DNA from: Roseburia sp. | GTDB taxonomy: Bacteria; Bacillota; Clostridia; Lachnospirales; Lachnospiraceae | Assembly: GCA_017937095.1 (NCBI GenBank) | Contig: JAGBEG010000013.1 | Span: forward strand, 310,001-374,000 | Length of the DNA stretch: 64,000 bases | Direction of reading: 5' to 3' | Part shown: positions 1 through 17,304 of the stretch, one piece after another | Layout: every line of letters starts with the position of its first letter | Numbering within the stretch: the first letter of the stretch is position 1 | The notes under the pieces: generated by a model | Seen by the model: the letters and a program-made list of their open reading frames with translations, nothing else | Told to the model about the DNA's origin: nothing | Databases searched by the model: none | Made by a program: the position numbers and the translations under genes

Positions 1-401
1 TTCACATCGACGAGCAGGACATCCTTTTCCGCTTCCCTGGTCTGATATACATTTAAAAATGTCACGACAAGATCGGCGCTCTGATCAAGCTCTGCTATTT
101 GATCCATCCCCTGCAAAAGTTCCTCGCAAAACACAACCTTTCCCGTTTGCTCCACCCCGACAAGCTTGTGGATATAGCCGACCCATGTTCCCACCTCCTC
201 CTTTTGCGCCGTTTCCTTTAAGACCACATATCCGGTTCCGTCGTATGTGACCCGCATGACATCTTCTATCGCTAACGTGCATTCCTCCTTTTCCTTCATC
301 CTCTGTTCCAACGCCTTTGCCGGCGCACTGCATCCGGCAAGTAAGCAAACTGCCGCAGCCATGCAAAAAAAGGCGATTCCGCAGCCCGATTTATGCCTCA
401 T
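1..401 (-). CDS. lanI: Lantibiotic immunity lipoprotein (NisI/SpaI-like), C-terminus off the window
   Basis: Reading the minus strand from the ATG at 401 gives an open frame of 133 residues running off the left edge. It begins with a basic, hydrophobic signal peptide and an LLAGC lipobox with Cys24, so it should be a membrane-anchored lipoprotein outside the cell. It starts inside the end of the preceding permease gene (11-base overlap), which argues for translational coupling in the lanFEG operon. In nisin and subtilin clusters a lipoprotein at this place binds the lantibiotic and protects the producer. The visible sequence is too divergent and too incomplete to prove the family; the role rests mostly on the lipobox and on position. 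Confidence 0.72.
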   Translation of the reverse strand, partial: MRHKSGCGIAFFCMAAAVCLLAGCSAPAKALEQRMKEKEECTLAIEDVMRVTYDGTGYVVLKETAQKEEVGTWVGYIHKLVGVEQTGKVVFCEELLQGMDQIAELDQSADLVVTFLNVYQTREAEKDVLLVDV

Positions 402-1125
402 ACCGTTTTCTTCCTTCCCACCTTTCAAACCACAGGACGAGCAGCAGCACTCCCGCCGCGCCGAGCGCCAGACGTATTCCCCACTGCGCGGCGTGCACCG
501 CCACATTTCCATTCAACACGTCCTTTCCCCACTCGATCTGCCACGCAAACGGAATATAACGCCAGATTCCCGCAAGCTCGATATTGCTGTAGATGATTGC
601 CTGCATACTCTCGAATACGCCAAAGAACACGGAAATCCCAAACCCGTAAGCCAGACTGATGAACAGATGGAATACATAGAGCACGATACTGCTTACCGCC
701 GCCCCCGCGAACAGCTTCATCAGCGCCGCAAGCACTTCCGCCCGCAGTTCTCCGCCAAGTCCGATTCCCGCCGCAAAGACAGCCCCCAGAATCCATAATG
801 CCAATATTCCAAAGCCCCAGAGAATCAGAAGCTTCGCCAGAAGGATTTTAAAACGCCCCTGCTCTGAAAGCAGATGAAAGAAATGGGATTCCTGTTCCTC
901 CTGCATCACAGCAATTCCCGTCATAATGCTGCACAGAAACGGAAACAGGGTCGCCGTCACCTCAAAGATCAGCCTGATGCGGTCAGACGCAAGCTGCCCC
1001 CGGTACATAACATAGTAAGCCGCAAATCCGACGGCGCCAAGAGCCGGAATCCATATATGTGAAAGAATAAAAGGCGTATGTTTTAATTTCATAAGCTCCG
1101 CCCCAAACATCCTTGTCTTTCTCAT
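391..1125 (-). CDS. lanG: Lantibiotic immunity ABC transporter permease, MutG/SpaG-like
   Basis: This 244-residue protein has about six hydrophobic segments and no nucleotide-binding motif. It is the second of two membrane subunits of equal length that follow an ABC ATPase. In LanFEG systems such subunits form the channel that expels the lantibiotic from the producer's membrane. Its ATG overlaps the stop of the preceding gene by four bases (ATGA), typical of a coupled pair. Low overall conservation means the E and G labels could be exchanged; the family assignment is inferred from architecture and context. Confidence 0.8.
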   Translation of the reverse strand: MRKTRMFGAELMKLKHTPFILSHIWIPALGAVGFAAYYVMYRGQLASDRIRLIFEVTATLFPFLCSIMTGIAVMQEEQESHFFHLLSEQGRFKILLAKLLILWGFGILALWILGAVFAAGIGLGGELRAEVLAALMKLFAGAAVSSIVLYVFHLFISLAYGFGISVFFGVFESMQAIIYSNIELAGIWRYIPFAWQIEWGKDVLNGNVAVHAAQWGIRLALGAAGVLLLVLWFERWEGRKRYEA

Positions 1126-1856
1126 CTGCCTTCCCCTCCGTATTTTTCAAACACTTTTGCATCCAGCGCCGAAAGCGCCGCATAAAACACCGCCGAGCAG
1201 ACGAGGATAAGCGCCACGCCCGGATAAGAAATTTCTGTGCTGCCGCTCCATGTGCCGTTGATGGCAATTCCCATGAAGTATTCCGCCAGCTTCGCCGGCC
1301 AGCAATACGGCCATATCCACCAGAAGGACGTATTCCCTATCAGAACGATCGTCGACAATCCGAGCAGGGCGTTCCCAATGATGGGAAGCAGGACGCCTGC
1401 CTTTCGTATCACAAGCAGGCAAAGGGGAATCTGCCAGAGGGATGCGAAGATGATCAGACTGCTGCCCACGAGCATTCTTCCGACGCTGTACACTACAAAT
1501 GCAGGCGATATGATCTGTGACAGCGACAGAAAGAGAGCTAAGAGCACGCCCGCAATCCACAGCTTTTCTGCGAGTATCATATTTTTTGACCACTCGAATT
1601 TCTGCAGATTAAGGGGCATCGAAAATACGGAATAGAACTTTCCCGCGCGCTCCTCCTTCTGCCAGGACAGTACGCACAAAACGGCGATCGTCCCCTGCAA
1701 AAGAAATGCGTACCACCAGTAAAATCCGATATACTGAAAGCTCACAAAGCCTCCGGAAAGCAGCGCAAAAAAAGCCGTACAAAGCGGGGCTATCCAGATC
1801 AGATGGTTTATCATCGTCCGTTTGCATGTCAAATGTTCTGATTTCAAATACAGCAT
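1122..1856 (-). CDS. lanE: Lantibiotic immunity ABC transporter permease, MutE/SpaE-like
   Basis: A 244-residue integral membrane protein with about six predicted transmembrane segments. It follows the ATPase gene with a gap of only three bases and overlaps the next permease gene by four. This ATPase-permease-permease order is that of LanFEG self-protection exporters, in which two similar permeases pair as a heterodimer. The N-terminus (MLYLKSEHLTCKRTMINHLI) looks like the amphipathic start common in these subunits. It would pump the subtilin-like product encoded at 2705-2869 away from the membrane. Confidence 0.82.
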   Translation of the reverse strand: MLYLKSEHLTCKRTMINHLIWIAPLCTAFFALLSGGFVSFQYIGFYWWYAFLLQGTIAVLCVLSWQKEERAGKFYSVFSMPLNLQKFEWSKNMILAEKLWIAGVLLALFLSLSQIISPAFVVYSVGRMLVGSSLIIFASLWQIPLCLLVIRKAGVLLPIIGNALLGLSTIVLIGNTSFWWIWPYCWPAKLAEYFMGIAINGTWSGSTEISYPGVALILVCSAVFYAALSALDAKVFEKYGGEGR

Positions 1857-1859
1857 CTG

Positions 1860-2567
1860 CTACTCCCTCCTGTTCTCCCTGACTACATCCATGAATATCG
1901 CTTCCAAGTCCTCCCCCTCGTGAAATTTACCCTCATACCCGAGCTTCCCGTCCGCAATGATCCCGATGTAATCGGCGACCTGCTGCACCTCGCTTAAGAT
2001 ATGGCTTGAGAGTATCACCGTCATCCCCCGCCTGGGGAAGGACGCGATGAGCCTCCGCAGTTCTTCGATTCCCACCGGGTCCAGCCCGTTCGTCGGCTCA
2101 TCCAGAATCAGCAGCTTCGGCTCATTTAACAGTGCAATCGCAATCCCAAGCCTCTGCTTCATCCCAAGTGAAAATTGTCCTGCGCGCTTTTTCTTCGTTC
2201 CGGTCAGCCCGACCGTTTCCAGTACCTCGTCAATCCTGCTCTCGCCGATTCCAAGGAGCATTGCCCTGACCTTGAGATTCTCATACGCGGTCAGATTCTG
2301 ATACAGAGGCGGCATCTCGATCAATGCGCCGATGTCCGCCAGATCCTTTCTGGACCACGGGTGTCCGTTATAAATGATCCTCCCATGCGTCGGCCGCAGG
2401 ATGCCGGTAATCATCTTCAATGTGGTCGATTTTCCCGCCCCGTTCGGTCCCAAAAGACCATAGATCGAATTTTTCGGAATATTAAGCGATATCTGATCGA
2501 CCGCGTTCTGTCCATGAAAGCATTTGCTCAACTGCTGTGTCTGCAAAATCATTTCCATATGTTTCAT
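1860..2567 (-). CDS. lanF: Lantibiotic immunity ABC transporter ATP-binding protein, MutF/SpaF-like
   Basis: An ABC ATPase with Walker A GPNGAGKST, signature FSLGMKQRLGIA and Walker B LLILDEPTNGLD. It energises the LanFEG exporter formed with the two permeases that follow. The frame is open to 2639, but the upstream residues look like translated leader DNA. I place the start at the ATG at 2567, directly behind an AAAGGAAAGG Shine-Dalgarno stretch; ATG 2558 is a good alternative. The gene lies downstream of lanA beyond a hairpin terminator, so part of its transcription probably comes from read-through from the precursor gene promoter. Confidence 0.92.
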   Translation of the reverse strand: MKHMEMILQTQQLSKCFHGQNAVDQISLNIPKNSIYGLLGPNGAGKSTTLKMITGILRPTHGRIIYNGHPWSRKDLADIGALIEMPPLYQNLTAYENLKVRAMLLGIGESRIDEVLETVGLTGTKKKRAGQFSLGMKQRLGIAIALLNEPKLLILDEPTNGLDPVGIEELRRLIASFPRRGMTVILSSHILSEVQQVADYIGIIADGKLGYEGKFHEGEDLEAIFMDVVRENRRE

Positions 2568-2658
2568 CCTTTCCTTTTGTTCTGTTTTAGCATATGGGGA
2601 ATTTTTAAAGATTTCATAAAGAAAAGATGTTTTCTGCAAAATTTATTTCCTATTGCGC

Positions 2659-2694
2659 AAAAAAGCGATGAACAATGCTTGTCCATCGCTTTTT
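2659..2694 (-). terminator. Hairpin between lanA and lanF (partial terminator)
   Basis: The arms AAAAAGCGATG and CATCGCTTTTTT flank a loop of about 12 bases, so the structure carries a U-run in either direction. It lies 11 bases past the lanA stop. In lantibiotic operons such leaky terminators keep precursor mRNA abundant and let a smaller share of transcripts reach the immunity genes; that role is inferred here. Confidence 0.75.
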
Positions 2695-2704
2695 GCCCTG
2701 TCAA

Positions 2705-2869
2705 TTAACCAATCTGGCATCCGCAGGTCGCTGTCTGAATCGCACAGGTCTGAAGGATTCCTGTGATACAGCCAGGTGTGCAAAGTGACTTGCTCTTCCA
2801 CTGTACCTCTGCGCCCGGCTTGCTGCTCTTAAGTGTTACGTCCAAATCAAAGTCGTTGAAATTTGCCAT
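2705..2869 (-). CDS. lanA: Subtilin-like class I lantibiotic precursor peptide
   Basis: This 54-codon gene starts with ATG at 2869 behind a strong AAGGAGGAG site. The leader holds FDLDV, matching the FNLD/FDLDV box used by class I LanB and LanC enzymes. The predicted cut follows the Gln of GAEVQ, giving a 31-residue core starting Trp-Lys-Ser and containing SLCTPGC. Core Ser3, Thr8, Thr13, Thr23 and Thr25 with Cys7, Cys11, Cys19, Cys26 and Cys28 match the five (methyl)lanthionine rings of subtilin and nisin; Ser5 and Thr18 are left for dehydration. Against subtilin as I recall it, 22 of 31 positions are the same; changes include Lys for Glu4 and a shorter tail ending Gln-Ile-Gly. Five Cys and seven Ser/Thr are present in the core. 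I could not compare it with all known nisin or subtilin variants. Confidence 0.96.
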   Translation of the reverse strand: MANFNDFDLDVTLKSSKPGAEVQWKSKSLCTPGCITGILQTCAIQTATCGCQIG

Positions 2870-2949: not shown

Positions 2950-2981
2950 AATATAGGGCATAAAAATCAAGATAAAATCAA
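2950..2981 (-). promoter_or_regulatory. lanA promoter with spa-box-like operator
   Basis: On the minus strand two TTGAT pentamers (2977-2981 and 2966-2970) are separated by six bases, followed after ten bases by TATATT (2950-2955) as -10. SpaR of Bacillus subtilis is known to bind TTGAT direct repeats six bases apart. No good -35 is present, as expected for an activator-dependent promoter. It lies just beyond the lanK stop codon and about 80 bases before lanA. Recognition by the LanR encoded here is inferred. Confidence 0.75.
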
Positions 2982-2997: not shown

Positions 2998-4374
2998 TCA
3001 AATTTTTTCCGGCAGACGAATGACCGCTCTCGCGCCGCCCTCCACGCTCACATTTTCCAGCGTCAGCGTTCCGTGATGCCTCTGCACTACGCTGTCCGCA
3101 AAGTACAGTCCCATCCCAAAATGCATCTCCGTGCTCCGGCTGTGCTCCTTCATGAAAAAAAGCTCCTTCGCATGTGCCAGCGCCTCTGCCGAAAAGCCTT
3201 CCCCGCTGTCGGTCACGTCAAGTTCCAGTTCCCCGCCCGTCACGGACGCCGCAAATACGATCCGCCCCTTTGCCGGCGTGTGCTCTACGGCATTGCCGAT
3301 CAGATTCATCACCGCCCGCTCCAGCAGCATCGCATCCCCGTAAAATTCATCGGGGACTTCACCGATTCCGGTCTCCAATGCAATTTCTTTCTTACAGCAG
3401 AGGATAGCCGCCTGCTTTTTTATGGACTCTAAAAACGCAGGCAGCGCGAACCATCTGAAATGATATTCATAGCCGACAGCGGCTCTGGAGAGCTCGATCA
3501 AAAGCTGCACATAATCCGTCATCCGCCCTACACTCTCCGACGTCTGGGAGACATACTCCATCTGCTCTTCGGTAAGCGGCGTCTCGCCCAGCAGATCCAG
3601 ATTGCCCTGTGCAATCGTCAGCGGGGTCTTTAGATCATGCGCCAGCGCCGCAATCTGTTCCTTCTGATACTGCTCACTCTTCCACTGCTTTTTCAGGGAG
3701 GCCAAAAGCTCCTCCTTCATATCAGAAAAAGAGAGCAGTATGTCCTCAAATTCTTTGATTCCGGAATGCCCCACCCCGAAATCAAGGTTCTGCGCCGTAA
3801 TCTCCCTTGTCGCCGCAAAAACAGGCGCAAGCTGGCCCTTAAGCCTTCTTTCAAAACGGGTAATCAGAAAAACAGAATACAGAATCGCATTGCACGCGAT
3901 CAGAATGACAAGAAGATACTCCGGCGAAGGCAGATGCTCCTCCATCCAGTCATTCGTATAAAAAGTTCCCATCTCATACTGTAAAATAATATAACGCCCC
4001 TCGCGCTCTATGCGCAGGTACTGTTTTCCGGCGTCGTAGGCTATCGTACCGTTTTTCACGAACTGTATCGCTCCGGCAATCTCCGCCTCGTCCATGGATG
4101 TGTCCACCACCTCGCACGCGTCATTGAGAACCAGATATTTCACCCGCGCCGAAAGTTGTCCTAACACCTCGGAATCATCCTCCGCCGTCTCAAGCAGCGA
4201 CGCGGCAGTCTTCGCTACATTTTCACTGGCATCCGCGTAATTCGCGATTCCGAAATTGACCGCCATCCAGAACAGCGCCCACGGAACTGCCACAGACAGC
4301 CCCAATCCCAACAACAATTCAATGAAAAAATGCCAGAACATTCTCCGCAATGTGATTACTCTTCCTGCTGCCAT
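2998..4374 (-). CDS. lanK: Lantibiotic-responsive sensor histidine kinase
   Basis: A membrane sensor kinase with two N-terminal transmembrane segments bracketing an extracytoplasmic region. These are followed by the H-box ALAHDLKTPLTIAQ, an N-box NLIGNAVEHTP, and ATP-lid motifs DSGEGF and GMGLYF. With the adjacent regulator it should form the two-component system that senses the mature lantibiotic and switches on its own genes, as NisRK and SpaRK do. I chose the ATG at 4374, which overlaps the end of lanR by 19 bases; the frame stays open to 4428. The gene ends 17 bases before the lanA operator. Confidence 0.92.
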   Translation of the reverse strand: MAAGRVITLRRMFWHFFIELLLGLGLSVAVPWALFWMAVNFGIANYADASENVAKTAASLLETAEDDSEVLGQLSARVKYLVLNDACEVVDTSMDEAEIAGAIQFVKNGTIAYDAGKQYLRIEREGRYIILQYEMGTFYTNDWMEEHLPSPEYLLVILIACNAILYSVFLITRFERRLKGQLAPVFAATREITAQNLDFGVGHSGIKEFEDILLSFSDMKEELLASLKKQWKSEQYQKEQIAALAHDLKTPLTIAQGNLDLLGETPLTEEQMEYVSQTSESVGRMTDYVQLLIELSRAAVGYEYHFRWFALPAFLESIKKQAAILCCKKEIALETGIGEVPDEFYGDAMLLERAVMNLIGNAVEHTPAKGRIVFAASVTGGELELDVTDSGEGFSAEALAHAKELFFMKEHSRSTEMHFGMGLYFADSVVQRHHGTLTLENVSVEGGARAVIRLPEKI

Positions 4375-5024
4375 TTGTACCCAATCCCCCATACTGTTTT
4401 TATCGGCTGTAGCTGATACCGGTTCCATTTCGCGCGGATATTCATAATATGCGTCGCAATCGTTGTGTTATCGCTCTCTCCAAACACATCAAATACCGCC
4501 TCGTAAATCTGTTCCCTCGAAAAGACCTGTCCCTTATTCCGCGCGAGATACTCACAGATTAAGTATTCGCTTTTGGTAAAGGGAAGTGCCTCCCCGTTTA
4601 CGGAAATGATCCGCGCGTCCATGTCAATCGCAATTCCGCCGAAGTTTAAGACATGATGATGCTCCCGCTTTTCCCTGCGCAAATGCGCATTGACCCTGGC
4701 TCTTAACTCCGCAATCCGAAACGGCTTCATCAGATAGTCGTCCGCCCCGATTCCAAGTCCGTAGGTAATATCCTGCTCCATTGTCTTTGCCGTCAGAAAT
4801 ATGATCGGATAATCGACGCTCTCCCTGACCTTCCTGCAAAAGTCAAATCCATCCATATCGGGCATCATCACGTCCAATATCAGCATTTCATAATGCTTCA
4901 TCTGTTTTACGTCGATTTCCTGCGCACTCGTGTATGTCTGTACGATGTGACCGTCCTTTTCCAGTCCCTTCTTAATGACTTCCAAGATTGCAGATTCATC
5001 ATCCACTGCGATAATCCTAGCCAT
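4356..5024 (-). CDS. lanR: Lantibiotic response regulator, OmpR/PhoB type
   Basis: A 222-residue response regulator. The N-terminal receiver has the acidic pair DDE near the start, the phospho-acceptor Asp in LILDVMMPDMDG, and a conserved Lys in YLMKPF. The C-terminal half is a winged-helix DNA-binding domain with the EYLICEYLARNKGQVFSREQ type helix. The start is fixed by GGAGGAATGAG before ATG. It pairs with the overlapping kinase gene and is the obvious candidate to bind the TTGAT repeats upstream of lanA and lanB. Confidence 0.93.
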   Translation of the reverse strand: MARIIAVDDESAILEVIKKGLEKDGHIVQTYTSAQEIDVKQMKHYEMLILDVMMPDMDGFDFCRKVRESVDYPIIFLTAKTMEQDITYGLGIGADDYLMKPFRIAELRARVNAHLRREKREHHHVLNFGGIAIDMDARIISVNGEALPFTKSEYLICEYLARNKGQVFSREQIYEAVFDVFGESDNTTIATHIMNIRAKWNRYQLQPIKTVWGIGYKWQQEE

Positions 5025-5085: not shown

Positions 5086-6405
5086 CTAATCCAGCAGAAA
5101 CGCCTTTTTCCACAGGCTCCCGCCCGGATGCTCTCCCTCTAAGAGCGCAAGGCACACGCCCGCCGCCCCGTCAAGCAGCCCGGCAGCGTCGCGCGCGCAA
5201 AGCGCTCCTTTGGCACGGTCAAATTCCATGTCGGGAAAGCCAAAGATATGACGCGGGTCGTAAAAGTCCAGAATTTTCCCGCGCAGATACGCTTTTTCCT
5301 GTACGAACAACTCCCGCTTTAATAACGCCTCCGCAGCGTTTAAAATCTGGTACAGCCCGGCATATCCATGGCAGAAGGTGGGCGAAAAAATTCCCCGTAT
5401 ATCCTGCATTGTCTGTCCGATGTTTGTAATCGCATACTGCACCCATTCCGGTCTTCCGAGTGCTTCTCCCGCCGTCATTAGGGCGTAGCATATGCCGGGA
5501 GAACCATAGCACCACGCATCCCTGCGGATGATGTTCTCCTGCGAAACCTCCCCTTCCGTCACCTCCAAAAAAGCAAGCTGTCCTTTCCAGAAGTCTCTTT
5601 TGCCGTCATTGCAGCGGAACCGGAAGTAAAAGTCCACAATTTTTTCTATGGCTTCCCGCTGCCCTTCTACGATGACGCCCGCTGCGAACATTTTCGAGAG
5701 AATCACAAGCGGTCCTGCAATTCCGTGGGAAAGACTTGTGTTGAAGTTCCCCTGCGGATAAAGCCGCTGTTCCTGCTCACTGAACTGATTCACCGACGGT
5801 ATGTACCACCCGGGCACTGCGCACCCTGCAATCTGTATGTCCCCGGTAAGCTGCACCAGCGTTTGAAGTCCGCTTTTTAACGCCGCATAACAGCAATCTT
5901 CCTGCAAGAACAAAGACAGATAGCTTAGGACGCCGCTTACTCCCTCGATGACGTCATACAGAAGGCTGTGCGTTCCCTGCGGTGTGACGACATGCGCCAG
6001 ATACGCATCGAACTGCGCCGTGATTCCGGTATTGACCGTATGAATCAGCTTCCCGTATCTCTGGAAGCCGCCGGACACGCTCGCGGCGCAAAGCCCGATT
6101 CCCGCCAGGCCGGAAAACATCGACAGCCCCGGCACGCCCTGCGCATTTAGTCCCGCAACCGTCCTGCCGAGATAGTCATGTGCCAGCGCACACCACTTTT
6201 CCTGATTCGGGTAAAGCTCCATCAGCCTGCCGTATAACAGGCAGATTCCCGGCAATCCCTGGCTCAGCGTGTACAGCCTTTCCGCAGCATCGCTGATTCC
6301 CGCCACGCGCTCATACTCCCCGAGCCTTTCGGCAGTTACATTTATCATATCATCGATCCGATCCTCTGTCACACATTCCGTGACACATCCTGTCTCAACT
6401 TCCAT
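5086..6405 (-). CDS. lanC: Lantibiotic cyclase LanC
   Basis: A LanC-like zinc enzyme of about 439 residues that adds Cys thiols to dehydrated Ser/Thr in the precursor to close lanthionine rings. It shows the alpha-toroid repeat motifs (GLPGICLLYG, SHGIAGPLVIL, WCYGSPGICYAL, FCHGYAGLYQIL, DGAAGVCLAL). The zinc ligands are the Cys of WCYG and the Cys-His of FCHG, as in NisC. The frame extends to a GTG at 6417, but the ATG at 6405 follows GGAGGGAAGC and is the better start. The start lies inside an array of repeated Shine-Dalgarno/ATG units, described separately. Confidence 0.95.
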   Translation of the reverse strand: MEVETGCVTECVTEDRIDDMINVTAERLGEYERVAGISDAAERLYTLSQGLPGICLLYGRLMELYPNQEKWCALAHDYLGRTVAGLNAQGVPGLSMFSGLAGIGLCAASVSGGFQRYGKLIHTVNTGITAQFDAYLAHVVTPQGTHSLLYDVIEGVSGVLSYLSLFLQEDCCYAALKSGLQTLVQLTGDIQIAGCAVPGWYIPSVNQFSEQEQRLYPQGNFNTSLSHGIAGPLVILSKMFAAGVIVEGQREAIEKIVDFYFRFRCNDGKRDFWKGQLAFLEVTEGEVSQENIIRRDAWCYGSPGICYALMTAGEALGRPEWVQYAITNIGQTMQDIRGIFSPTFCHGYAGLYQILNAAEALLKRELFVQEKAYLRGKILDFYDPRHIFGFPDMEFDRAKGALCARDAAGLLDGAAGVCLALLEGEHPGGSLWKKAFLLD

Positions 6406-6491
6406 GCTTCCCTCCACACTTTCATGCTTTCCTCCACACTTTCATGCTTCCCTCCACACTTTCATGCTTCCTTCCACATTTCATGTTTCCT
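6403..6491 (-). repeat. Tandem 20-bp repeat, each unit carrying a Shine-Dalgarno site and ATG
   Basis: Four to five copies of a 20-base unit place ATG codons at 6484, 6465, 6445, 6425 and 6405, each behind GGAGGGAAGC or a close variant. The ATG at 6405 is the lanC start. The ATGs at 6465 and 6445 each open an eight-codon frame whose TGA overlaps the next ATG (ATGA). The ATG at 6425 opens an 18-residue frame crossing into lanC out of frame. The gap between lanT and lanC contains little else. Confidence 0.9.
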
Positions 6492-6521: not shown

Positions 6522-8327
6522 CTACATCTGCATATCTCCGTAGACCTCCGCCTGATAGAGCTTCTGATATACCGCACAGTGCGCCAACAGCTCCTCGTGC
6601 TTACCGATCGCCGCCACGCTGCCCCCGTCCATCACAATAATCTTGTCCGCCATCTTGGCGGCATTCAGCCGATGCGAGATGTATACCCCGATTTTGTCTC
6701 TGGAACGCTCGAAGAACTGTTCAAAGACCTCCTTCTCGGACACCGTATCCAGCGCTGCATTCGGCTCGTCTAATATATAAAAGGAAGCGTCCTTAAAGCA
6801 TGCCCGCGCCAGCGCAATTTTCTGCCACTGTCCCTGTGACAACTGCCGTCCGTCCTCAAACCAGTTTCCAAGCTGCATGTCCAGACGGTATGTTCCGTCC
6901 TCTGCTTCAAGAAACCCCGTCTTAAGCTCCTTAAGGATCGCAGTCATCTTTTCTTTGTTTTCCATATCGGATGCGTTTCCGAACCCGACATTTTCCTGCA
7001 GGGTAAGCTCATATTTCACAAAATCCTGAAAGAGCACGGAAAGTCTGGCGCGGTAATCTCCCATATCAAGCTCCCTCATTGGGATGCCGTTGATCTTAAT
7101 GTCCCCCGTCTCCGGCTCGTATAAGCCCGCCAGCACTTTTAACAGGGTGCTTTTCCCGGAGCCGTTCGGTCCGACGACCGCTATTTTCTCCCCTTTCCGA
7201 AAGCACAGATTCACACCGTTTAAGACATTCTTTTTGCCGTCATACGAAAATGACAGCTCCTCTATGTCCACCCTCGTGATGTCTGCGCCAAGCGTTCGCC
7301 CCTCCTTCTTTTCCTGCCTGCTGTCGTTCTCCTCCAGAAACTCGAACAGCATATTCATATACAGGGAGCAGCTATACATATTATAAATATTTTCCATCAG
7401 TTGCCCGGAATTACTCTGGACTAATCCCACGCTCCGGATATAGCTTATCACATTTCCGACCAATATTTTGCCGGTATATGCCGATAACAATGCGATTCCG
7501 ATCACTGCAAATCCGACGCACTGCACCACAACCTCATAGATCAGGTTAAAAATGGTCTTCCGGTTCAAAAGGCGGTTGTTCTGATCCATAAAGCCGGTGC
7601 TGATGTTCCAGTATTTTTTCAGCAGATAATCCTTAAGCTGTAACAGGGAAATCTCCTTAAAAGAGAAATCATGGGTCAGCAGATGCCCCAGATACCAGAT
7701 TTTGCGCTCTTCCTTCGCGCGGTTCCACATCATCTCAAATTCCTGCTGACCGATCTTTAAATAATAGAAAACAGAAATGACCGGAACGATAAACAGCAGT
7801 AATGAGACGACGGGATTCCATAAAAAGAGGAAAATGACCGAGGACGCCATGGTGACGACCGCCGTCACCATTCCGATCAGCGACAAGAGCATCTGATACG
7901 GGCGGTAGGAAATCTCTCCCGTTATCTTTTCGACCCTGTCATACATCGCGGAGCTTTCAAAATCCTTAAGCGTCATCTGCGTACACTGTTCCATCACAAA
8001 GTAATTCAATTTGTACTGCAGCAGATATTGGTATTTTTTCTGGATATACCCCTGAAGCTCTGCGATTGCTTCGCCCAAAAAGCCCGCGAGTATGTAAATG
8101 ACAAATATCATCAGGGTATCACGGAACGCCCGGTTCTCCCGCACAAGGGAATTGATCAGCTCCTGTGAAAGAACCAGTGTGACGACCGGAAAGACGCCCG
8201 CTGCGACACTTAAGACGAGAATCTGAAAAACGCTGCGCTTGTCCACTTTCAACAAAATGGCAATCGTCCTTGGAAGCTGCCGTATCGCTTTTGCCACATC
8301 ACCCAACTGCACTCTGGTCTGTTTCAT
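6522..8327 (-). CDS. lanT: Lantibiotic exporter LanT, ABC transporter without peptidase domain
   Basis: A 601-residue half-transporter. About six transmembrane helices occupy the first 320 residues. The nucleotide-binding domain follows, with Walker A GPNGSGKSTLLK near residue 388, a signature-like LSQGQWQKIALARA and Walker B FYILDEPNAAL. It has no N-terminal C39 peptidase, as is usual for class I LanT, so it exports the modified precursor with its leader still attached. Its ATG lies 29 bases inside the end of lanB, so the two genes are translationally coupled. Confidence 0.95.
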   Translation of the reverse strand: MKQTRVQLGDVAKAIRQLPRTIAILLKVDKRSVFQILVLSVAAGVFPVVTLVLSQELINSLVRENRAFRDTLMIFVIYILAGFLGEAIAELQGYIQKKYQYLLQYKLNYFVMEQCTQMTLKDFESSAMYDRVEKITGEISYRPYQMLLSLIGMVTAVVTMASSVIFLFLWNPVVSLLLFIVPVISVFYYLKIGQQEFEMMWNRAKEERKIWYLGHLLTHDFSFKEISLLQLKDYLLKKYWNISTGFMDQNNRLLNRKTIFNLIYEVVVQCVGFAVIGIALLSAYTGKILVGNVISYIRSVGLVQSNSGQLMENIYNMYSCSLYMNMLFEFLEENDSRQEKKEGRTLGADITRVDIEELSFSYDGKKNVLNGVNLCFRKGEKIAVVGPNGSGKSTLLKVLAGLYEPETGDIKINGIPMRELDMGDYRARLSVLFQDFVKYELTLQENVGFGNASDMENKEKMTAILKELKTGFLEAEDGTYRLDMQLGNWFEDGRQLSQGQWQKIALARACFKDASFYILDEPNAALDTVSEKEVFEQFFERSRDKIGVYISHRLNAAKMADKIIVMDGGSVAAIGKHEELLAHCAVYQKLYQAEVYGDMQM

Positions 8328-11300
8328 GCTCCCTCCCCTTCTCCCTGCTTCTCATGACAAACTTTTTGGCATACAATACGCTTTCCGCAAACGCCATGAC
8401 CTTTCGTTCCTGCTCTCGGTCCGTTCCGAGCAGACGGTTGCAGTGCAGATGCAGTACGCTTGCAACAATATCATTTTTAAATTCAGGCGGCCGCCCCTCT
8501 GCTGCAATTTCCTCCTTGTATGTCGCAACAAGCGGGGTTCTGCGGTTCAACAATTCATACAGCCGCTTTCCATCCCCTCTGCCGCGCAGATTTCTCCATC
8601 CGTTTTCCATGTCGCAAATTGCAAGCAGCCGTTCCTTTTTTTCCTGAAATGCGCTCCTGTAGGACGACGAATGATAGTAAAGCTCCATGAACTTAAGGCA
8701 TTCCTCGAATGAATCATAAAAATGCGTCACATACAAAAGCACGGAAATGACTGCGATTTCTTCCTGTTCTAAGGTAAGACTTCCTGTCCGCTTCCAATTC
8801 AATAGATTCTCCACCACAAAGCTGTCCTCACAGAAAAGCTGCTCCGCCCTGCCGATGAGCCGCACGCCGCCATAGCGCTCGATTTCCCGCTCATAGACGG
8901 ATATGTTCATATCCCCGATTCTGTGGTTCTTCGAAAGCTCCCTGCACCATTCCATCATAAGCGGCAGCCCCTCATACAGCTTCTTTCGCTCCCCGTGGAA
9001 TCTTAGCCTGATGTGCGGCTTCGGGTCCGCGTAGCGCATGAAAAAGGAATCGATGCCCAATCGCTCCTTTAACGGCTCGCAAAATTCCGGGATGGAAAAT
9101 CCGATCAGCTCCTCCTCGCGGTCTTCCTTGCAGTAGAGCTTGAAATACAGCCATTCCTCAAACGGATAGACCATATGCTCTTCCCTGCCCGTGAAATCCG
9201 GACACGGGAAATCAACGATCTTTTCCTTTCCCATTTTGCGGAATAACGGTACTACAATTTCCGTAGCATACGCTTTTCCGTCGTCGTAACTAATATCCTC
9301 TCCCGCCTCCGTCCTCTCGAACGTCAGATCCTCTCCCGCCTTCTTTTTCATTTCGTCGTACACGATCCGCAGGGAGATATCCGTTTTCAGATTCAGACGG
9401 ATACGGTTGTCCGCCTCTGTCAGATAAATTTCCTCCGGCAGATGCTCGGTTTGTGCAAATGCGAGGAATCGCTCCTTAAATTCGCCGTAGGGCTGTTTCT
9501 TTCCTCCCAGCTCCTGCAAGCTGATTTTCCACTTCTCGCTTTCTAACACGATATCCTCAAACCGGATTTCCGGGATATGGCGGTAATCCGCATAGACATA
9601 CCGCCAGGGCAGTTCTGACCAGTTCCTTGTCCCCTCCGCCGCAATTTCTAACAGAAACCGCATGGCATTGGGAAGCATCAGCGGATTATACATATTGTTC
9701 GATTCAAAGAGTATCCGTTTTCCGCTTACACCGTTTCTTGCATAGAAACGATTGCCCTCCACGCCGATGAAAATATCCGCCAGACGAACGCAATCCTCTT
9801 TTTCCTTACATGTTCCGGTATAGGCTGTCAGTTCCTTTTCCCTGCCGGAAAGCGCCCTTACGATATTGCCGTTTCGCACCACGGACGGAAGGAAACTCAC
9901 CTCACACAGCTCTGTGTCTTCATCCCGCCGCTTTTCCTCCTCCTGATTCAGGTCCAGCAGAACCCTTTCTATCTCCTCTGACAATATGGAAAATCTTCCG
10001 AAGGTTTTTCCCGCTCCGTTCGCGCCGCAGCCTGCCCCCAGATATAATTTCTGGCAGCCTTCCTCGTTTCTTAATCTGAAATACAGCTCCATTGAGACGG
10101 GTATCTCATTCCATGACGCCTCTTCGTCGAGCAGTTCCTCCATCTCCTTAAGCTCTAACCGGATGCAGGACTTGTCCGCAACCGCCCTCTCGTATTTGCG
10201 GATGAGATACCCTTTTAGCTTCACGTTATAGGGATTTGAAGCTGTGCGCTCCTCAAAGAAATCATTTTTCGGATTCAGATACCCCATCGGCGCACCGATT
10301 CCGACGCCTGTATCTAACATTTCCAGCAGGGGAACTTCCCTTTTCATGCCGTATTTTTCGATAAATTTGTCCCGATACTCGTCCAGATGCGTCCGGGCGT
10401 CGCGGGTTCTGCTGCTGATTGCGACAAAAAAGCCAGCCAGCCTGCGGATCTGTCCCGCCGTCTCTTTGGCAAGGCGCACATCCGCCCCGCTTATCACAGT
10501 ATCTACCTGCGTACAGAAGGGCGCGTCATAATACTTCTTCATCATCCGGGAAATCTCATGATATTTCTCCGTTCCCTCACCGATTGCCGTGCGCTCATAT
10601 ACCTGGCACTGCTCTTCTATCGTAGCGAGCTGCCCGCAGATTTCCACAAGTCCCGCGGTTTTACACTTGTCTTTTAGATATTGAAGCTGATCCTTGCAGT
10701 GAAAAGGCGGACGCAGATTTGAAATCAAAATCTGCCGTTCGACCAGCTCTGCGATATACGTCCGGATCGTCTCATCGGGCGCATCCGGATATTCCTCCTT
10801 CACCGCCGCAAAAATCTCCGGGAAGCTCCGGTATACGCTGCATACCTTATGTATCACTTCAAATACCCCCGTGTATCTGACGCTGATTTCCTCCGTATTC
10901 TTTTCTGTCGTATAGATTAACGCCGCCCGGTTGCCCCGGATGCAGCAGGCATTATTTACCTGAAACGCAAGCTGCGTCATATATTGCTGTTCGAGCTGCC
11001 TGATATAGCCATAAAGCCATTCCGCGTCAATGTTGATCTTTTTCTCATATTCCGCACCCCGGATGCCAAAGTGCGCATCCTCACCGAAGCTTCCGATTCC
11101 CACTCCGGCAAACAGACCGAAAGGGGTTGTCCTCGTTTTGCTTCTGACATAGTACTTCATCACGGAAGCCCAAAGCCCCTCTTTCTTTTTCTCTGACAGT
11201 TGTTCGGGGTGGCTCCGGTATAAATCCATCATTTCGATCAGGGATGGGGCAGCAATGTTCACCTTTTCCCGAAAAGCCGGATCGCCGCAGGCATTTCTCA

Positions 11301-11400
11301 CTTCTTCTTCTGTAAACCGGACGTCACAGACGGAATCTGTCGGTGTGCGGAACATAAAGTTTTCACTATTGCAGAATAATTCTCTCATCTTTCCTGACAT
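8299..11400 (-). CDS. lanB: Lantibiotic dehydratase LanB
   Basis: A full-length class I dehydratase of 1033 residues. The long N-terminal part is the glutamylation domain that uses glutamyl-tRNA to activate Ser and Thr of the precursor. The C-terminal part, from roughly residue 745 (EEWLYFKLYCKEDREEELIG) onward, is the SpaB_C-type elimination domain with the RYADPKPHIRLRFHG motif. The reading frame is intact. It is the first gene of the biosynthetic operon; a spa-box-like promoter lies 45-75 bases upstream. ATG 11400 is used; a second ATG at 11388 is possible. Confidence 0.96.
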   Translation of the reverse strand: MSGKMRELFCNSENFMFRTPTDSVCDVRFTEEEVRNACGDPAFREKVNIAAPSLIEMMDLYRSHPEQLSEKKKEGLWASVMKYYVRSKTRTTPFGLFAGVGIGSFGEDAHFGIRGAEYEKKINIDAEWLYGYIRQLEQQYMTQLAFQVNNACCIRGNRAALIYTTEKNTEEISVRYTGVFEVIHKVCSVYRSFPEIFAAVKEEYPDAPDETIRTYIAELVERQILISNLRPPFHCKDQLQYLKDKCKTAGLVEICGQLATIEEQCQVYERTAIGEGTEKYHEISRMMKKYYDAPFCTQVDTVISGADVRLAKETAGQIRRLAGFFVAISSRTRDARTHLDEYRDKFIEKYGMKREVPLLEMLDTGVGIGAPMGYLNPKNDFFEERTASNPYNVKLKGYLIRKYERAVADKSCIRLELKEMEELLDEEASWNEIPVSMELYFRLRNEEGCQKLYLGAGCGANGAGKTFGRFSILSEEIERVLLDLNQEEEKRRDEDTELCEVSFLPSVVRNGNIVRALSGREKELTAYTGTCKEKEDCVRLADIFIGVEGNRFYARNGVSGKRILFESNNMYNPLMLPNAMRFLLEIAAEGTRNWSELPWRYVYADYRHIPEIRFEDIVLESEKWKISLQELGGKKQPYGEFKERFLAFAQTEHLPEEIYLTEADNRIRLNLKTDISLRIVYDEMKKKAGEDLTFERTEAGEDISYDDGKAYATEIVVPLFRKMGKEKIVDFPCPDFTGREEHMVYPFEEWLYFKLYCKEDREEELIGFSIPEFCEPLKERLGIDSFFMRYADPKPHIRLRFHGERKKLYEGLPLMMEWCRELSKNHRIGDMNISVYEREIERYGGVRLIGRAEQLFCEDSFVVENLLNWKRTGSLTLEQEEIAVISVLLYVTHFYDSFEECLKFMELYYHSSSYRSAFQEKKERLLAICDMENGWRNLRGRGDGKRLYELLNRRTPLVATYKEEIAAEGRPPEFKNDIVASVLHLHCNRLLGTDREQERKVMAFAESVLYAKKFVMRSREKGREHETDQSAVG

Positions 11401-11444: not shown

Positions 11445-11476
11445 AACTTAACAGAAAAATATCAGAGAAAAATCAA
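11445..11476 (-). promoter_or_regulatory. lanB promoter with spa-box-like operator
   Basis: On the minus strand TTGAT (11472-11476) and CTGAT (11461-11465) are six bases apart, with a -10-like TAAGTT (11445-11450) ten bases further on. Spacing is identical to that at lanA (2950-2981), though the second repeat and the -10 are weaker. The match in layout supports one regulator driving both the biosynthetic operon and the precursor gene. Confidence 0.68.
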
Positions 11477-11477
11477 A

Positions 11478-11517
11478 TGACCCTGAAGTGAAGGTATTAA
11501 CCCTCATTTCAAGGTCA
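11478..11517. other. Long hairpin between metQ and the lanB promoter
   Basis: TGACCCTGAAGTGAAGG and CCCTCATTTCAAGGTCA form an imperfect 17-bp stem around a six-base loop. Read on the minus strand it is followed by a T-rich stretch (TTTGATTTTT) that overlaps the lanB operator. It could terminate metNIQ transcription, or serve as a binding site of a dimeric regulator. The sequence does not decide between these. Confidence 0.6.
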
Positions 11518-11521
11518 TGTG

Positions 11522-11585
11522 TCTTTCCGGTCTTTCCGCTCTTTCCGGTCTTTCCGTTTTTTCCGGTTTTTCTGGTCTTTCCGGT
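11522..11585. repeat. 9-bp minisatellite (TCTTTCCGG units) after metQ
   Basis: About seven imperfect copies of TCTTTCCGG run in tandem immediately downstream of the metQ stop codon. On the minus strand they read as Gly-Lys-Thr repeats in a frame opened by TTG, but no ribosome binding site precedes that frame. I treat the stretch as a non-coding minisatellite. Confidence 0.75.
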
Positions 11586-11622
11586 CGCAGCTTCCTGCTT
11601 CTTTTCTGACTTTGTACGCTTC

Positions 11623-12564
11623 TTACTCCTCAAACGGAATTACCGCGCCGTTATAGGTGTCATTGATGTACTGTTTGATCGCATCGGACTTTAATACCTC
11701 GACCAGCGCCTGAATGCCCTCATTCTGCTCGTTTCCTTCCTTCACCGCAATGACATTCACGTATGTCTGCGCCGCCTCGGAGTCATTCGTCTCGTATGCA
11801 ATCGAATCATTTGCCACGGTGTAACCTGCCTGCAGTGCGTAGTTACCGTTTAATACGACAAATGCCACCTCCGGCACGACTCTTGCCACCTGTGCCGCCT
11901 CAAGCTCCTGAATCTCAACCCCATATGGGTTCTCCACGATGTCGTTGACCGTTGCGGTAAGTCCTGCATCCTCCTTTAAAGTGATGACGCCGTTCGCCTG
12001 TAACAGAAGAAGCGCTCTCGCCTCGTTCGTCGTATCATTCGGCACTGCAATCACATCGCCCTCTGCAAGTTCGGAGAGATCCTTCTTTGTGCCCGGATAG
12101 ATGCCGAACGGCTCGTAGTGGACGCCTCCCGCATTGACAAGATGCGTGCCCTTTGTCTCATTGAAATCCTCCAGATACGGGATGTGCTGGAAATAGTTCG
12201 CGTCAAATTCGCCGCTCTCCACGACCTCATTCGGCTGTACATAATCGTCAAATACCGTCACCTGTAAATCCCAGCCCTGCTCTGCAAGGATTGCCTTTGC
12301 CTGCTCTAAGATCTCCGCGTGCGGCGTTGCAGAAGCCGCTACCGTAATCGTGCCCTTTGCCTCGGGCTGCCCTTCCCCGACTGCATCCGCGGCATGCTCT
12401 GTCGCCTGCGCGCTCTCTGCGCCCGCCGTCTCATCCGCTGCCGCCGCCGTCTCATCCGCTGCTGCCTGATTTTCTGCCGCGTCCGTGCCGCTGTTTCCGC
12501 AGCCAGTAAGTGTACCGATTGCCAATACGCCTGCTAAAATACCTGTTAAAATTTTCTTCTTCAT
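11623..12564 (-). CDS. metQ: Methionine ABC transporter substrate-binding lipoprotein MetQ (NlpA family)
   Basis: The protein starts MKKKILTGILAGVLAIGTLT and has the lipobox LTGC, so it is anchored to the outer face of the membrane. A Glu/Ala-rich linker follows, then the NlpA-type binding domain (VTVFDDYVQPNEVVESGEFD, YFQHIPYLEDFN, GVHYEPFGIYPG). It captures methionine or a related compound for the MetNI importer encoded just upstream. The open frame extends to 12585, but the ATG at 12564 fits the signal peptide. It is the last gene of metNIQ. Confidence 0.94.
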   Translation of the reverse strand: MKKKILTGILAGVLAIGTLTGCGNSGTDAAENQAAADETAAAADETAGAESAQATEHAADAVGEGQPEAKGTITVAASATPHAEILEQAKAILAEQGWDLQVTVFDDYVQPNEVVESGEFDANYFQHIPYLEDFNETKGTHLVNAGGVHYEPFGIYPGTKKDLSELAEGDVIAVPNDTTNEARALLLLQANGVITLKEDAGLTATVNDIVENPYGVEIQELEAAQVARVVPEVAFVVLNGNYALQAGYTVANDSIAYETNDSEAAQTYVNVIAVKEGNEQNEGIQALVEVLKSDAIKQYINDTYNGAVIPFEE

Positions 12565-12680
12565 AATATCCTCCATCCTGCGCACATTCCTTTTTTATAA
12601 CGGGCTGCATCCGGTGCGCGCCGACGCATATCCCGCGTATTTCGAAAGCTGCGCACTGCGCCGCTTCCGTAGTTACCATA

Positions 12681-13340
12681 TCATTTTCGTTTGTCCAGAC
12701 GGGATGCCGCCCGCATTCCGATGGTCTGGAAAATCTGTACCAGCACAATGAGCAGAATCACCGTCACTGCCATAATGTCCGTCTCGTACCGGTAATATCC
12801 GTAGCGGATTGCAATATCGCCAAGCCCGCCTCCTCCGACGCTTCCCGCCATCGCCGAGTAGCCGAGAATCGTGCCAAGTGCGATCGTGCTCCCCACAACC
12901 AAAGACGTCCGCGCCTCCACCAGAAGCACCTTCGTGATAATCGTCACATTGTCCGCGCCCATCGAGCGCGCCGCCTCAATCACTCCGGGGTCTACCTCCT
13001 TTAAGGAGGACTCCACCATGCGGGCGATAAACGGCGCCGCCGCAATGACGAGCGGTACGATCGTCGCCGTCGGTCCGTAGCTCTTTCCGACCAGCGCTCT
13101 GGTAAACGGAATCAGCAGGATCAGCAGAATCAGAAACGGAATACTCCTTAAGATATTTACGATCACATCGAAGATCTTGTAGATAGCAGCATTCGGGTGA
13201 ATACCGTCCCTGTCCGTCACCGCGAGCAGGATTCCCACCGGAAGCCCGAGCAGATAACCGAACACCGTCCCCCCGATTGTCATATAGAGGGATTCTCCGA
13301 TTCCCCGGATAATCATCTCTGTCACTTCACTACTCCACAT
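12681..13340 (-). CDS. metI: Methionine ABC transporter permease MetI
   Basis: A 219-residue permease with five or so transmembrane helices and the EAA loop common to binding-protein-dependent importers (EAARSMGADNVTIITKVLL). It forms the membrane channel with MetN as motor and MetQ as binding protein. Its start overlaps the end of metN by 11 bases. The N-terminal TIGGTVFGYLLGLPVGILL segment is typical of MetI. Confidence 0.95.
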   Translation of the reverse strand: MWSSEVTEMIIRGIGESLYMTIGGTVFGYLLGLPVGILLAVTDRDGIHPNAAIYKIFDVIVNILRSIPFLILLILLIPFTRALVGKSYGPTATIVPLVIAAAPFIARMVESSLKEVDPGVIEAARSMGADNVTIITKVLLVEARTSLVVGSTIALGTILGYSAMAGSVGGGGLGDIAIRYGYYRYETDIMAVTVILLIVLVQIFQTIGMRAASRLDKRK

Positions 13341-14424
13341 CCTCTGTCACCTCCTCAATCTCAAGTCCCTTTTCCACAAGATAAGCTTCCATTTCCGCCC
13401 AGAGTTCGCGCTCGGGGGGAAGGCCCAATATCATCTCACCCTTGGCAAATCCGCCGACATTTTTGGTGTCCGCCCGGAGGATGTTCACCGGAACGCCGAA
13501 TTTCAGCACCATGTTGGCAATGACCGGCTCAAACGCGGAGTTTTCTGAAAAGACGATGCGCAGCTTTCTGTCTCCGCGCAGCGTCGCGCGCTGGCGGTTC
13601 TCCCCGCTCCACTCTTCCACTCCCCCATATGAAGCATCTCCGCCATCCTGCCCCGCCGTCTGACCTTCCCAGCTTCCCTCTGCACGGTCGCTTAGAATCA
13701 GGCTGCGCGCCACCTTAGAGCGCGGATGATTGAAAATATCCTCGACCAGCCCCTGTTCTACAATCTGTCCCTGCTCTACGATAGCGACATGACTGCAGAT
13801 TTCGCGGATGACCGACATCTGATGTGTGATAATCACAATTGTAATGCCGAATTTCTGATTGATTTCCCTAAGCAGTGCGAGAATGGATGCGGTCGTCTGC
13901 GGGTCTAACGCGCTTGTCGCCTCGTCACAGAGCAGAATCTTCGGATCGGATGCGAGCGCCCTTGCGATCGCAACTCTCTGCCGCTGTCCTCCCGAAAGCT
14001 GCGACGGATAGGCACGCGCCTTGTCGGATAAACCGACCGTCCGAAGAAGCTCCAACGCTTTTTCTCTGGCTTCCCGCTTCTTTATCTTCTGAATCTGCAT
14101 CGGAAAGCAGATATTATCCACCACATTTTTCTGCATCAGCAGATTGAAATTCTGGAAAATCATCGCGATATCGCTCCGCTGTGCGCGAAGCTCCTTTCCG
14201 CTTAGCGTTCCGAGCTCTCTTCCGCCGATGATGACTTCACCGCTTGTCGGTTTCTCTAAGTAATTGAAACATCGAACCAGCGTACTTTTTCCGGCGCCCG
14301 ACATTCCGATAATTCCGTAGATATCTCCCTCCTCGATCGTCAGTGAGATATCCTTTAGCGCTTCCACGCTGTTCCCCTTCTGCTCGAAGGTCTTTGTTAG
14401 ATGACGTACCTCGATTGCTGGCAT
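13330..14424 (-). CDS. metN: Methionine ABC transporter ATP-binding protein MetN
   Basis: An ABC ATPase with Walker A GMSGAGKSTL, signature LSGGQRQRVAIARAL and Walker B ILLCDEATSALD, followed by a C-terminal NIL domain that senses intracellular methionine in this family. A Gly/Ser/Gln-rich linker separates the two. The ATG at 14424 (MPAIEVRHLTK) is chosen because upstream codons are translated repeat DNA. No S-box (SAM-I) riboswitch could be recognised ahead of it, which is unusual for metNIQ in Firmicutes. Confidence 0.94.
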   Translation of the reverse strand: MPAIEVRHLTKTFEQKGNSVEALKDISLTIEEGDIYGIIGMSGAGKSTLVRCFNYLEKPTSGEVIIGGRELGTLSGKELRAQRSDIAMIFQNFNLLMQKNVVDNICFPMQIQKIKKREAREKALELLRTVGLSDKARAYPSQLSGGQRQRVAIARALASDPKILLCDEATSALDPQTTASILALLREINQKFGITIVIITHQMSVIREICSHVAIVEQGQIVEQGLVEDIFNHPRSKVARSLILSDRAEGSWEGQTAGQDGGDASYGGVEEWSGENRQRATLRGDRKLRIVFSENSAFEPVIANMVLKFGVPVNILRADTKNVGGFAKGEMILGLPPERELWAEMEAYLVEKGLEIEEVTEDVE

Positions 14425-14465
14425 ATGTGAATCCTTTCTCCTTCTTGCTGGTCTTACATTCGAAT

Positions 14466-14547
14466 TTCCCGGCAGGGCTTTTTGCTCTATAGGAATCATT
14501 ACTTTCACGCTTTACAACAACATGGTATTTCCTATCGCACAAAAAAA
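14466..14547 (-). repeat. Dispersed intergenic repeat, copy 1
   Basis: About 80 bases closely match 25220-25300. Shared blocks on the plus strand are CAGGGCTTTTTGCTCTA, CTTTCACGCTTTA and GTATTTCCTA. Both copies lie just past a minus-strand rho-independent terminator and before the next minus-strand gene. Here it occupies the space between a small Cys-rich ORF and metN. Confidence 0.8.
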
Positions 14548-14564
14548 GCAGCCCCTCGGCTGCC
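14541..14564 (-). terminator. Rho-independent terminator after the Cys-rich small ORF
   Basis: On the minus strand GCAGCC, GAGG loop and GGCTGC are followed by seven T. It lies about 25 bases beyond the stop of the small ORF at 14590-14739 and would separate that gene from metN. Confidence 0.85.
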
Positions 14565-14589
14565 CATACACACAAACGCTTTATCCCGT

Positions 14590-14739
14590 CTATTCTTCTC
14601 TCCTGTCGCAGGAAACGGAAGTCTCCGGGAAAAACCGTGCACGAAAGACAGCCATACCACAGCGCATCATGCCCTTGCACATGCACATTGTCTGGCACAT
14701 CATACATTCTGTTCTCATCTGGCGTGTTGTATTCGTCAT
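14590..14739 (-). CDS. Small Cys/Met-rich protein of unknown function
   Basis: A 49-residue frame begins with ATG behind the strong site AAGGAGGATTGT and ends at a terminator, so it has the layout of a real gene. The centre contains ECMMCQTMCMCKGMMRCG: five Cys and many Met within 18 residues. This suggests metal binding or a redox role, but I recognise no family. It is monocistronic, lying between lysR and metN. The alternative is a chance frame; the start site argues against that. Confidence 0.6.
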   Translation of the reverse strand: MTNTTRQMRTECMMCQTMCMCKGMMRCGMAVFRARFFPETSVSCDRREE

Positions 14740-14885
14740 ACAATCCTCCTTCGTTTTGCGGAGCAAAATGCGACTGCCCTTGCATGGAGCAATGCTCAGC
14801 AAGCTGTGCAGGATTTTCCTCCCTTGTTTTGCTTCCTGTTTACAAAAGCTATTATAGCAGGTCGCAAAAAAAGGTGTTAATACGT

Positions 14886-14934
14886 GAAGCCGATAGTTAG
14901 TTATAGGTTCTCCCTATAACTAACTACCGGCTTC
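14886..14934. terminator. Very stable 20-bp hairpin downstream of lysR
   Basis: GAAGCCGATAGTTAGTTATAG pairs with CTATAACTAACTACCGGCTTC around a seven-base loop, with one mismatch. No long U-run follows. It lies 12 bases past the lysR stop and probably ends that transcript or protects its 3' end. Confidence 0.75.
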
Positions 14935-14946
14935 TATGTCTGCCCT

Positions 14947-16730: not shown

Positions 16731-17130
16731 CTTCCTTTGACCCCCGGATCAGACTTCGGATTGCCTTGTATACTTCCCGGATAATCGCGAAAATAAGGAA
16801 CATGACGACAAAACCGATCACGCCCATCATAATATCCGCAAACTCCATATTTCCGGTATTCGTCACCTTCTGCCCGATCTCGATTGCAAAGGTGATTACG
16901 ATAATGAGCGTAAACACATAGATCCACGCAATCACCATCACATGGTCGTGCTTGGCAAGCCACTTAAAAATCGGATAGATGATGAAAATAAATCCCATCC
17001 CCATCAGACCTATCACCAGAAAATGCAGCTCCTTATCTGTGAAATTATATTCGTAGGCGTCGTTCAGCCGCAAAATATAGCTATGAATCTTCGCGATACA
17101 CTCCACAATCCAATACAAAAGCTCTTTCAT
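16723..17130 (-). CDS. Small integral membrane protein, unknown function
   Basis: 135 residues with three hydrophobic stretches (LHFLVIGLMGMGFIFIIYPI, VIAWIYVFTLIIVITFAIEI, ADIMMGVIGFVVMFLIFAII) and a charged tail GSKEDE. The start is fixed at ATG 17130 by GGAGGTTTCT, so the longer upstream open frame is discounted. It is the first gene of a unit with YitT and LysR. I do not recognise a characterised family. Confidence 0.82.
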   Translation of the reverse strand: MKELLYWIVECIAKIHSYILRLNDAYEYNFTDKELHFLVIGLMGMGFIFIIYPIFKWLAKHDHVMVIAWIYVFTLIIVITFAIEIGQKVTNTGNMEFADIMMGVIGFVVMFLIFAIIREVYKAIRSLIRGSKEDE

Positions 17131-17264
17131 AGAAACCTCCATTCCAACTCGCTTCACACCGCTATGTATACAATGGCACATCACCATTTCCAGCGGCGTA
17201 CCGCCGTTTCGAATAAGATTACTACAAATTTCCCGCAAACGCAAGCTGTCATGGCAGTATGATG

Positions 17265-17304
17265 GCACGTTACCCGGATAAAATGCACGTTACCCGGATA
17301 AAAT
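17265..17304. repeat. Perfect 20-bp tandem direct repeat in a divergent promoter region
   Basis: The 20-mer GCACGTTACCCGGATAAAAT occurs twice back to back, followed by the start of a third copy (GCACCTC). It lies between the minus-strand membrane operon and the plus-strand Crp/Fnr gene. The rest of this 280-base gap holds no other feature I can support. Confidence 0.9.

Follow-up and report, generated by a model that had tools for sequence, protein, structure and literature searches.

The 64,000-nucleotide stretch of DNA analysed here (the window), together with the adjoining part of its contig, very probably carries the full gene set of a class I lantibiotic from the nisin/subtilin group, including its precursor gene lanA (2705..2869, minus strand). 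The gene starts with ATG directly downstream of an AAGGAGG ribosome-binding site, ends with a stop codon at 2705-2707 on the minus strand, and encodes a 54-residue precursor with the lantibiotic features of an FxLD-type leader (FDLDV, residues 7-11) and a Ser/Thr/Cys-rich core. The precursor matches TIGR03731, the gallidermin/nisin family (56.1 bits, the cut-off being 29.3; E = 2.8e-15), and the Pfam family Gallidermin PF02052 (31.7 bits, cut-off 21, E = 1.9e-7). Considering these E-values and the complete lan operon around the gene, the family match is far beyond chance. Alignment to W-start cores, such as that of PDB 7k1q, predicts a leader of residues 1-23 ending in Val-Gln and a core of residues 24-54. 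This predicted 31-residue core has Cys at positions 7, 11, 19, 26 and 28, and Ser/Thr at 3, 5, 8, 13, 18, 23 and 25. In the nisin ring pattern the pairs are 3-7, 8-11, 13-19, 23-26 and 25-28, and judged by residue spacing all five nisin/subtilin pairs are present in the predicted core. The open frame, the family matches and this spacing confirm what the first-pass annotation had described as a 54-residue precursor with an FDLDV leader box and a 31-residue core with five ring pairs. Core residues 5 and 18 lie outside the ring pairs and would potentially give Dha5 and Dhb18, so that up to seven dehydrations are expected; the monoisotopic mass computed for the core after seven dehydrations is 3058.45 Da. 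The predicted core also fits the nisin-like regular expression of PMC12506125 and contains the CTPGC motif.

The surrounding genes follow the order lanB-T-C-R-K-A-F-E-G on the minus strand with all frames open, and the operon is apparently intact. Profile searches returned a family match for every gene, and the gene identities, like the ring-forming residues of the core, can be read from the sequence itself. The lanB gene (8299..11400) encodes a 1033-residue dehydratase carrying both Pfam domains, PF04738 and PF14028, which matches NisB (PDB 4wd9) with E = 1.3e-122 over query residues 27-1017, nearly its whole length, and the solved LanB-like chain 9g04 with 5.1e-173. It is followed on the same strand by lanT (6522..8327; ABC exporter of 601 residues, ABC_tran), lanC (5086..6417; cyclase of 443 residues, PF05147), lanR (4356..5024; response regulator of 222 residues with a Trans_reg_C domain) and lanK (2998..4428; sensor histidine kinase of 476 residues with HisKA and HATPase_c). 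LanC matches NisC with 3e-40 over aligned residues 49-371 and keeps the NisC-aligned DAWCYG and CHG (Cys, Cys-His) motifs. The presence of a separate LanB dehydratase and LanC cyclase within one operon places the system among the class I lanthipeptides.

Downstream of lanA, also on the minus strand, lie the immunity genes: lanF, an ABC ATPase (1860..2570; TIGR03740), and the permeases lanE (1122..1856; TIGR03732) and lanG (391..1125; TIGR03733, 113.6 bits, slightly under the NCBIfam cut-off of 117.2). The operon is cut by the window edge, with the N-terminal part of lanI at 1..401 (minus strand), and the immunity set ends on the contig left of the window (L024), where the whole lanI gene occupies 8580-9401. 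The lanI start codon, an ATG, overlaps the 3' end of lanG, and the gene product is a 273-residue lipoprotein that matches NF033433, the NisI/SpaI-family immunity profile (166.2 bits, cut-off 35), PF18218 (Spa1_C; 147.6 bits, cut-off 26.4) and the NisI structure 5xhb. LanFEG together with a NisI/SpaI-type lipoprotein is the immunity equipment of the nisin/subtilin group. Directly after lanI there is a second response regulator gene of the Trans_reg_C type (L024:7890-8576) without an adjacent kinase gene, and a relative of this regulator also follows lanI in the Lachnospiraceae RUI302 cluster.

Modification, export, cleavage, autoinduction and killing can be proposed from known relatives. LanB would dehydrate as many as seven core Ser/Thr residues, LanC would close five thioether rings and LanT would export the peptide, whose leader would be cut off after Val-Gln by a protease encoded elsewhere. 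The mature cationic peptide of ~3.06 kDa would bind lipid II via rings A/B and permeabilise Gram-positive membranes, with LanFEG and the lipoprotein LanI protecting the producer. LanRK would sense the peptide and, acting at the spa-box-like repeats, induce lanA and lanB. The lantibiotic cluster is real and probably functional.

At the level of leader processing, a Pfam scan revealed no protease among the 9 operon proteins and 15 neighbours, one of these neighbours (16726-17268) having no Pfam match. Gut trypsin has been proposed as the processing enzyme for nisin O (PMC11811420); trypsin cuts after Lys/Arg and should not free this core at Trp1, since residue -1 is Gln. The genome itself contains three S8 loci, the best match being a protein of 302 residues, in which no signal peptide was seen by eye, and the others open frames of 719 and 565 residues; inspection of the first protein yielded no convincing secreted candidate. 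Val-Gln also closes the leaders of two RUI302 precursors, the remaining RUI302 leader having Ala-Gln, and it recurs in a precursor from genome G768 whose core starts with Phe-Lys-Ser; the leaders of Velocimicrobium porci end in Pro-Arg. G768 (L044-L049) has four precursors, three with I-T-S-K cores after Val-Lys and one with an aromatic F-K-S core after Val-Gln. This hints at covariation between the last leader residue and the beginning of the core, a pattern that RUI302, with Gln before I-T-S-K, does not fit.

The regulatory regions contain two spa-box-like direct repeats on the minus strand. The first, TTGAT-N6-TTGAT (2966..2981), lies, counted from its first base, 112 bp ahead of the lanA start, and the second, TTGAT-N6-CTGAT (11461..11476), 76 bp upstream of lanB; paired TTGAT-type repeats with six-base spacing have the geometry of the subtilin spa-box. 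The reported pattern is the YTGAT form, fixed after the two sites were seen, and a looser NTGATN6NTGAT pattern has 6 sites in the window. Local shuffles reproduced a match in 2/2000 cases for the stretch upstream of lanA and in 1/2000 for that upstream of lanB, whereas the window-wide count of 3 against 1.04 expected is not unusual, being reached by 9/100 shuffles. Seven of the 20 upstream stretches tested, which cover 8/19 precursor loci and use approximate lanB starts in the relatives, contain the motif. It lies upstream of lanA in 4/9 cases (the window, V. porci, the Lacrimispora locus L006 and RUI302; none in L007, L010, L011, L021 and L022) and upstream of lanB in 3/5 (the window, V. porci and RUI302; none in L006 and L007), with 0/4 upstream of lanF and 0/2 upstream of lanC and lanR. 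The cluster suggests that subtilin-type regulatory repeats extend into Lachnospiraceae clusters. Two hairpins, also on the minus strand, accompany these elements, in each case with 0/200 shuffles equally stable. One (2658..2695; -24.6 kcal/mol, z -6.6) has a T-run, is situated between lanA and lanF, is terminator- or attenuator-like and is absent from the list of the consensus terminator scan; the other (11477..11519; -26.6 kcal/mol, z -6.1) lies in the metQ-lanB interval, immediately ahead of the spa-box-like repeat. The consensus promoter and terminator scans were set aside because they gave no excess over shuffles (7 vs 10.3 and 8 vs 9.7, respectively). Four short imperfect ACCGGAAA-type repeats are also found between metQ and lanB (11521-11587).

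The cluster is rare among relatives. Counting its own genome each time, LanB was detected in 1/62 genomes of the genus and 2/397 sampled genomes of the family, and TIGR03731 was above cut-off in 1/299 family, 3/392 order and 2/398 phylum genomes, three samples that overlap; the precursor was found in 1/98 relatives. Such an isolated occurrence within the genus, together with an operon that lacks a protease, could be expected of a silent or decaying cluster that makes no antibiotic and whose peptide is only a signal, or unused. That explanation is very improbable, given that the reading frames are uninterrupted and their domains intact, that the repeats are common to relatives, and that the absence of a linked protease is normal in the group: lanP is reported to be missing in V. 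porci, which still makes active nisin VP (PMC12506125), and nisin O-like clusters also lack a linked protease (PMC11811420).

Horizontal transfer probably brought the cluster to its place between metQ and the gene for a CxxCxxCC (YkgJ-like, PF03692) protein, the alternative being its loss in all sampled congeners. The flanking metI gene is present in 34/62 and the CxxCxxCC gene in 38/62 genus genomes, from which 8 congeners were fetched for comparison. The gap between the metQ side and the YkgJ side measures ~20 bp in L036 and ~97 bp in L038, as opposed to 12.7-12.8 kb in the cluster's own genome. There are 1.5 kb between the flanks in L035, including a gene that by eye looks MFS-like, and 0.8-2.6 kb in L037, L039 and L042; L041 is arranged differently, and L040 shows no YkgJ-side match in the alignment, a partial protein match placing that gene ~90 bp away. 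These data fit acquisition at a site where insertions are frequent. The cluster has a GC content of 50.6%, like that of window positions 12000-28000, and so shows no sign of a recent donor with another GC content. Carriage by a phage or plasmid was rejected: searching viral_contigs with LanA produced 8 pattern matches and no confirmed relative, the matches to plasmids (20 records) and phages (1 record) all had <60% identity, and the two end stretches (~220 and ~320 bases) have in common no exact repeat of at least 10 bases, with one 9-base match.

Farther along the window, between 28000 and 64000, GC drops from ~50% to 36-46% and several genes resemble a mobile or defence island. Among them are an OLD/GajA-like AAA ATPase (29405-31264), a Mob_Pre relaxase (58355-59725), and an Mrr_N plus SIR2-like protein (38876-40693) whose neighbour is a large AAA_11/AAA_12 protein (40719-43754). 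The protein at 33006-34865 has a carbon-nitrogen hydrolase domain in front of a NUDIX domain, an unusual-looking pair, and weakly matches the PADLOC candidate PDC-S07 via its NUDIX part.

With regard to kinship, the precursor search yielded 19 loci in named genomes, the nearest being V. porci (70%) and a Lacrimispora MAG (65%), followed by Clostridium sp. E02 and RUI302 (56% each). The cores compared include subtilin and nisin A, along with the RL cores and bagelicin as given in Table 1 of PMC7507342. Identity to the predicted core is 26/31 for nisin VP, 25/31 for Lacrimispora L006, 24/31 for RL4 (Blautia coccoides) and RL8, 23/31 for RL11, 22/31 for subtilin, RL2 and RL13, 22/30 for bagelicin and CMB001, 20/31 for CE02 and 18/31 for nisin A. 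LanB is 45% identical to that of V. porci, 38% to that of RUI302 and 35% to those of L006 and L007, compared with 33-35% for Paenibacillus and Geobacillus types (some Geobacillus 34-35%); with L006 and L007 at only 35%, the Lachnospiraceae as a whole are not set apart. A 17-row LanB tree groups the window protein with RUI302, a long branch, with moderate support (83/99), V. porci being nearest by path. A single clade of the five Lachnospiraceae-type rows (one titled Clostridium sp. E02) is not supported, 2 changes being needed, and 6% of 200 bootstrap trees require 1 change. The tree was built without L009 (Corynebacterium, too divergent), L015 and L017 (frames <850 aa), L018 and L023 (no LanB match) and L016 (contig shared with L012), as well as without SpaB, its Bacillales rows being other types.

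These comparisons bear on the term subtilin-type that had been applied to the precursor. The evidence supports a lantibiotic precursor that starts like subtilin, with Trp1-Lys2-Ser3, in a member of the Lachnospiraceae, and the claim that nine of 31 core positions differ from subtilin is correct; the published W-start Bacillus core RL2 (PMC7507342), once the added IT is taken off, likewise has nine differences. As for nearest kin, the term is not supported: a plain subtilin homologue was rejected because nisin VP is nearer in both core and LanB. A true subtilin-lineage (Bacillus-type) cluster transferred into the Lachnospiraceae would account for the Trp1-Lys2-Ser3 start, the Gln before the predicted cleavage site, the spa-box-like repeats and the lack of a linked protease, traits that resemble subtilin (in part PMC8991943); this origin is nevertheless very unlikely, the core being nearer to nisin VP than to subtilin and LanB nearer to V. 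porci and RUI302 than to the Paenibacillus/Geobacillus types.

Within the nisin/subtilin group, a more specific and tentative proposal is that the peptide would be the first Trp1-type five-ring lantibiotic in Lachnospiraceae, a natural mosaic that joins the N-terminus of a subtilin to a body like that of nisin VP, freed by an unlinked protease cutting after Gln; its Lys4 could avoid Glu4-driven loss of Dha5, which may lengthen the lifetime of the peptide and alter its range of targets. The loss of subtilin activity has been attributed to Glu4 acting on Dha5, and Gln4 likely helps CMB001 (PMC7721686); Lys4 may act on Dha5 like the Gln4 of CMB001. Lys4, singled out earlier as a replacement of subtilin Glu4, does differ from subtilin, but it is not peculiar to this core, as it is also present in nisin VP, L006 and RL4. 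Nor is the Trp-Lys-Ser-Lys start unique, since the W-K-S-K-S start also occurs in locus L050 (G926), from another Bacillota family. The string WKSKSLCTPGC was in none of the paper texts searched, and SLCTPGCITG occurs in one paper, within other cores. The exact core sequence may be new, and could already stand in published supplementary tables.

Various studies have reported related peptides. Active nisin-like lantibiotics of Lachnospiraceae have already been published (PMC12506125, PMC10877564), and rumen Pseudobutyrivibrio carries nisin variants (PMC13289728). PMC12506125 reports 164 distinct nisin-like cores, with Trp, Ile and Val the most conserved residues at position one, and describes the production and activity of nisin VP, terming its hinge completely novel. 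Several gut cores are active, and the N-terminus, residues 1-2 included, and the hinge are presented as regions with a more direct effect on activity (PMC10877564). If active, the peptide would be one more lantibiotic from a gut-type anaerobe, offering a natural combination of N-terminus and hinge.

Nisin VP of V. porci has in common with the window system the five rings, the Ala20-Ile21-Gln22 hinge, the FDLD leader box, LanFEG plus LanI immunity, the lack of a linked protease and spa-box-like repeats upstream of lanA and lanB. The window core differs from it in Trp1-Lys2 instead of Ile1-Thr2, in Ile12 and Gln29, and in ending with Gly31 where nisin VP ends in T-G-K, and the leader ends in VQ instead of PKPR. 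The window has one precursor gene and V. porci two, followed there by lanFEG and lanI with lanBTC on the opposite strand, unlike the window. Subtilin, RL2, RL11 and CMB001, from Bacillus and Paenibacillus, have the same Trp1-Lys2-Ser3, Gln17, Gln22 and five rings. They differ in having Glu or Gln for Lys4, Phe-Leu or Phe-Ile for Ala20-Ile21 and, except for CMB001, which also has Ala, Leu or Ile for Ala24; Gly27, Gln29 and a shorter tail further mark the window core. RL4 (PMC7507342) has the same CGCQI tail and differs by Ile1-Thr2, Val12, Met17, a Pro20-Val21 hinge and a T-G-K end; RL4 may be blauticin, whose precursor PMC10877564 places in B. coccoides. The L050 precursor is identical to the window core at 23/31 residues, and differs in Phe6, an FLQ hinge, a C-terminal NCHFGK and a leader ending in EVD. 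The RUI302 cluster has the same gene order, B-T-C-R-K-A-F-E-G-I-R2, including lanI and the second regulator, with three precursors that start with I-T-S-K-F-L and whose C-terminal half is unlike that of the window core. The nisin O group, compared by its published description, has two RK systems and a GC of 31.8% for nisin O-like clusters, its members being 98.4-100% nucleotide-identical to the Blautia obeum A2-162 cluster (PMC11811420); the window cluster has two response regulators, one kinase and a GC of ~50%. The cluster opens no new class, and its interest lies in the mixed N-terminus and hinge.
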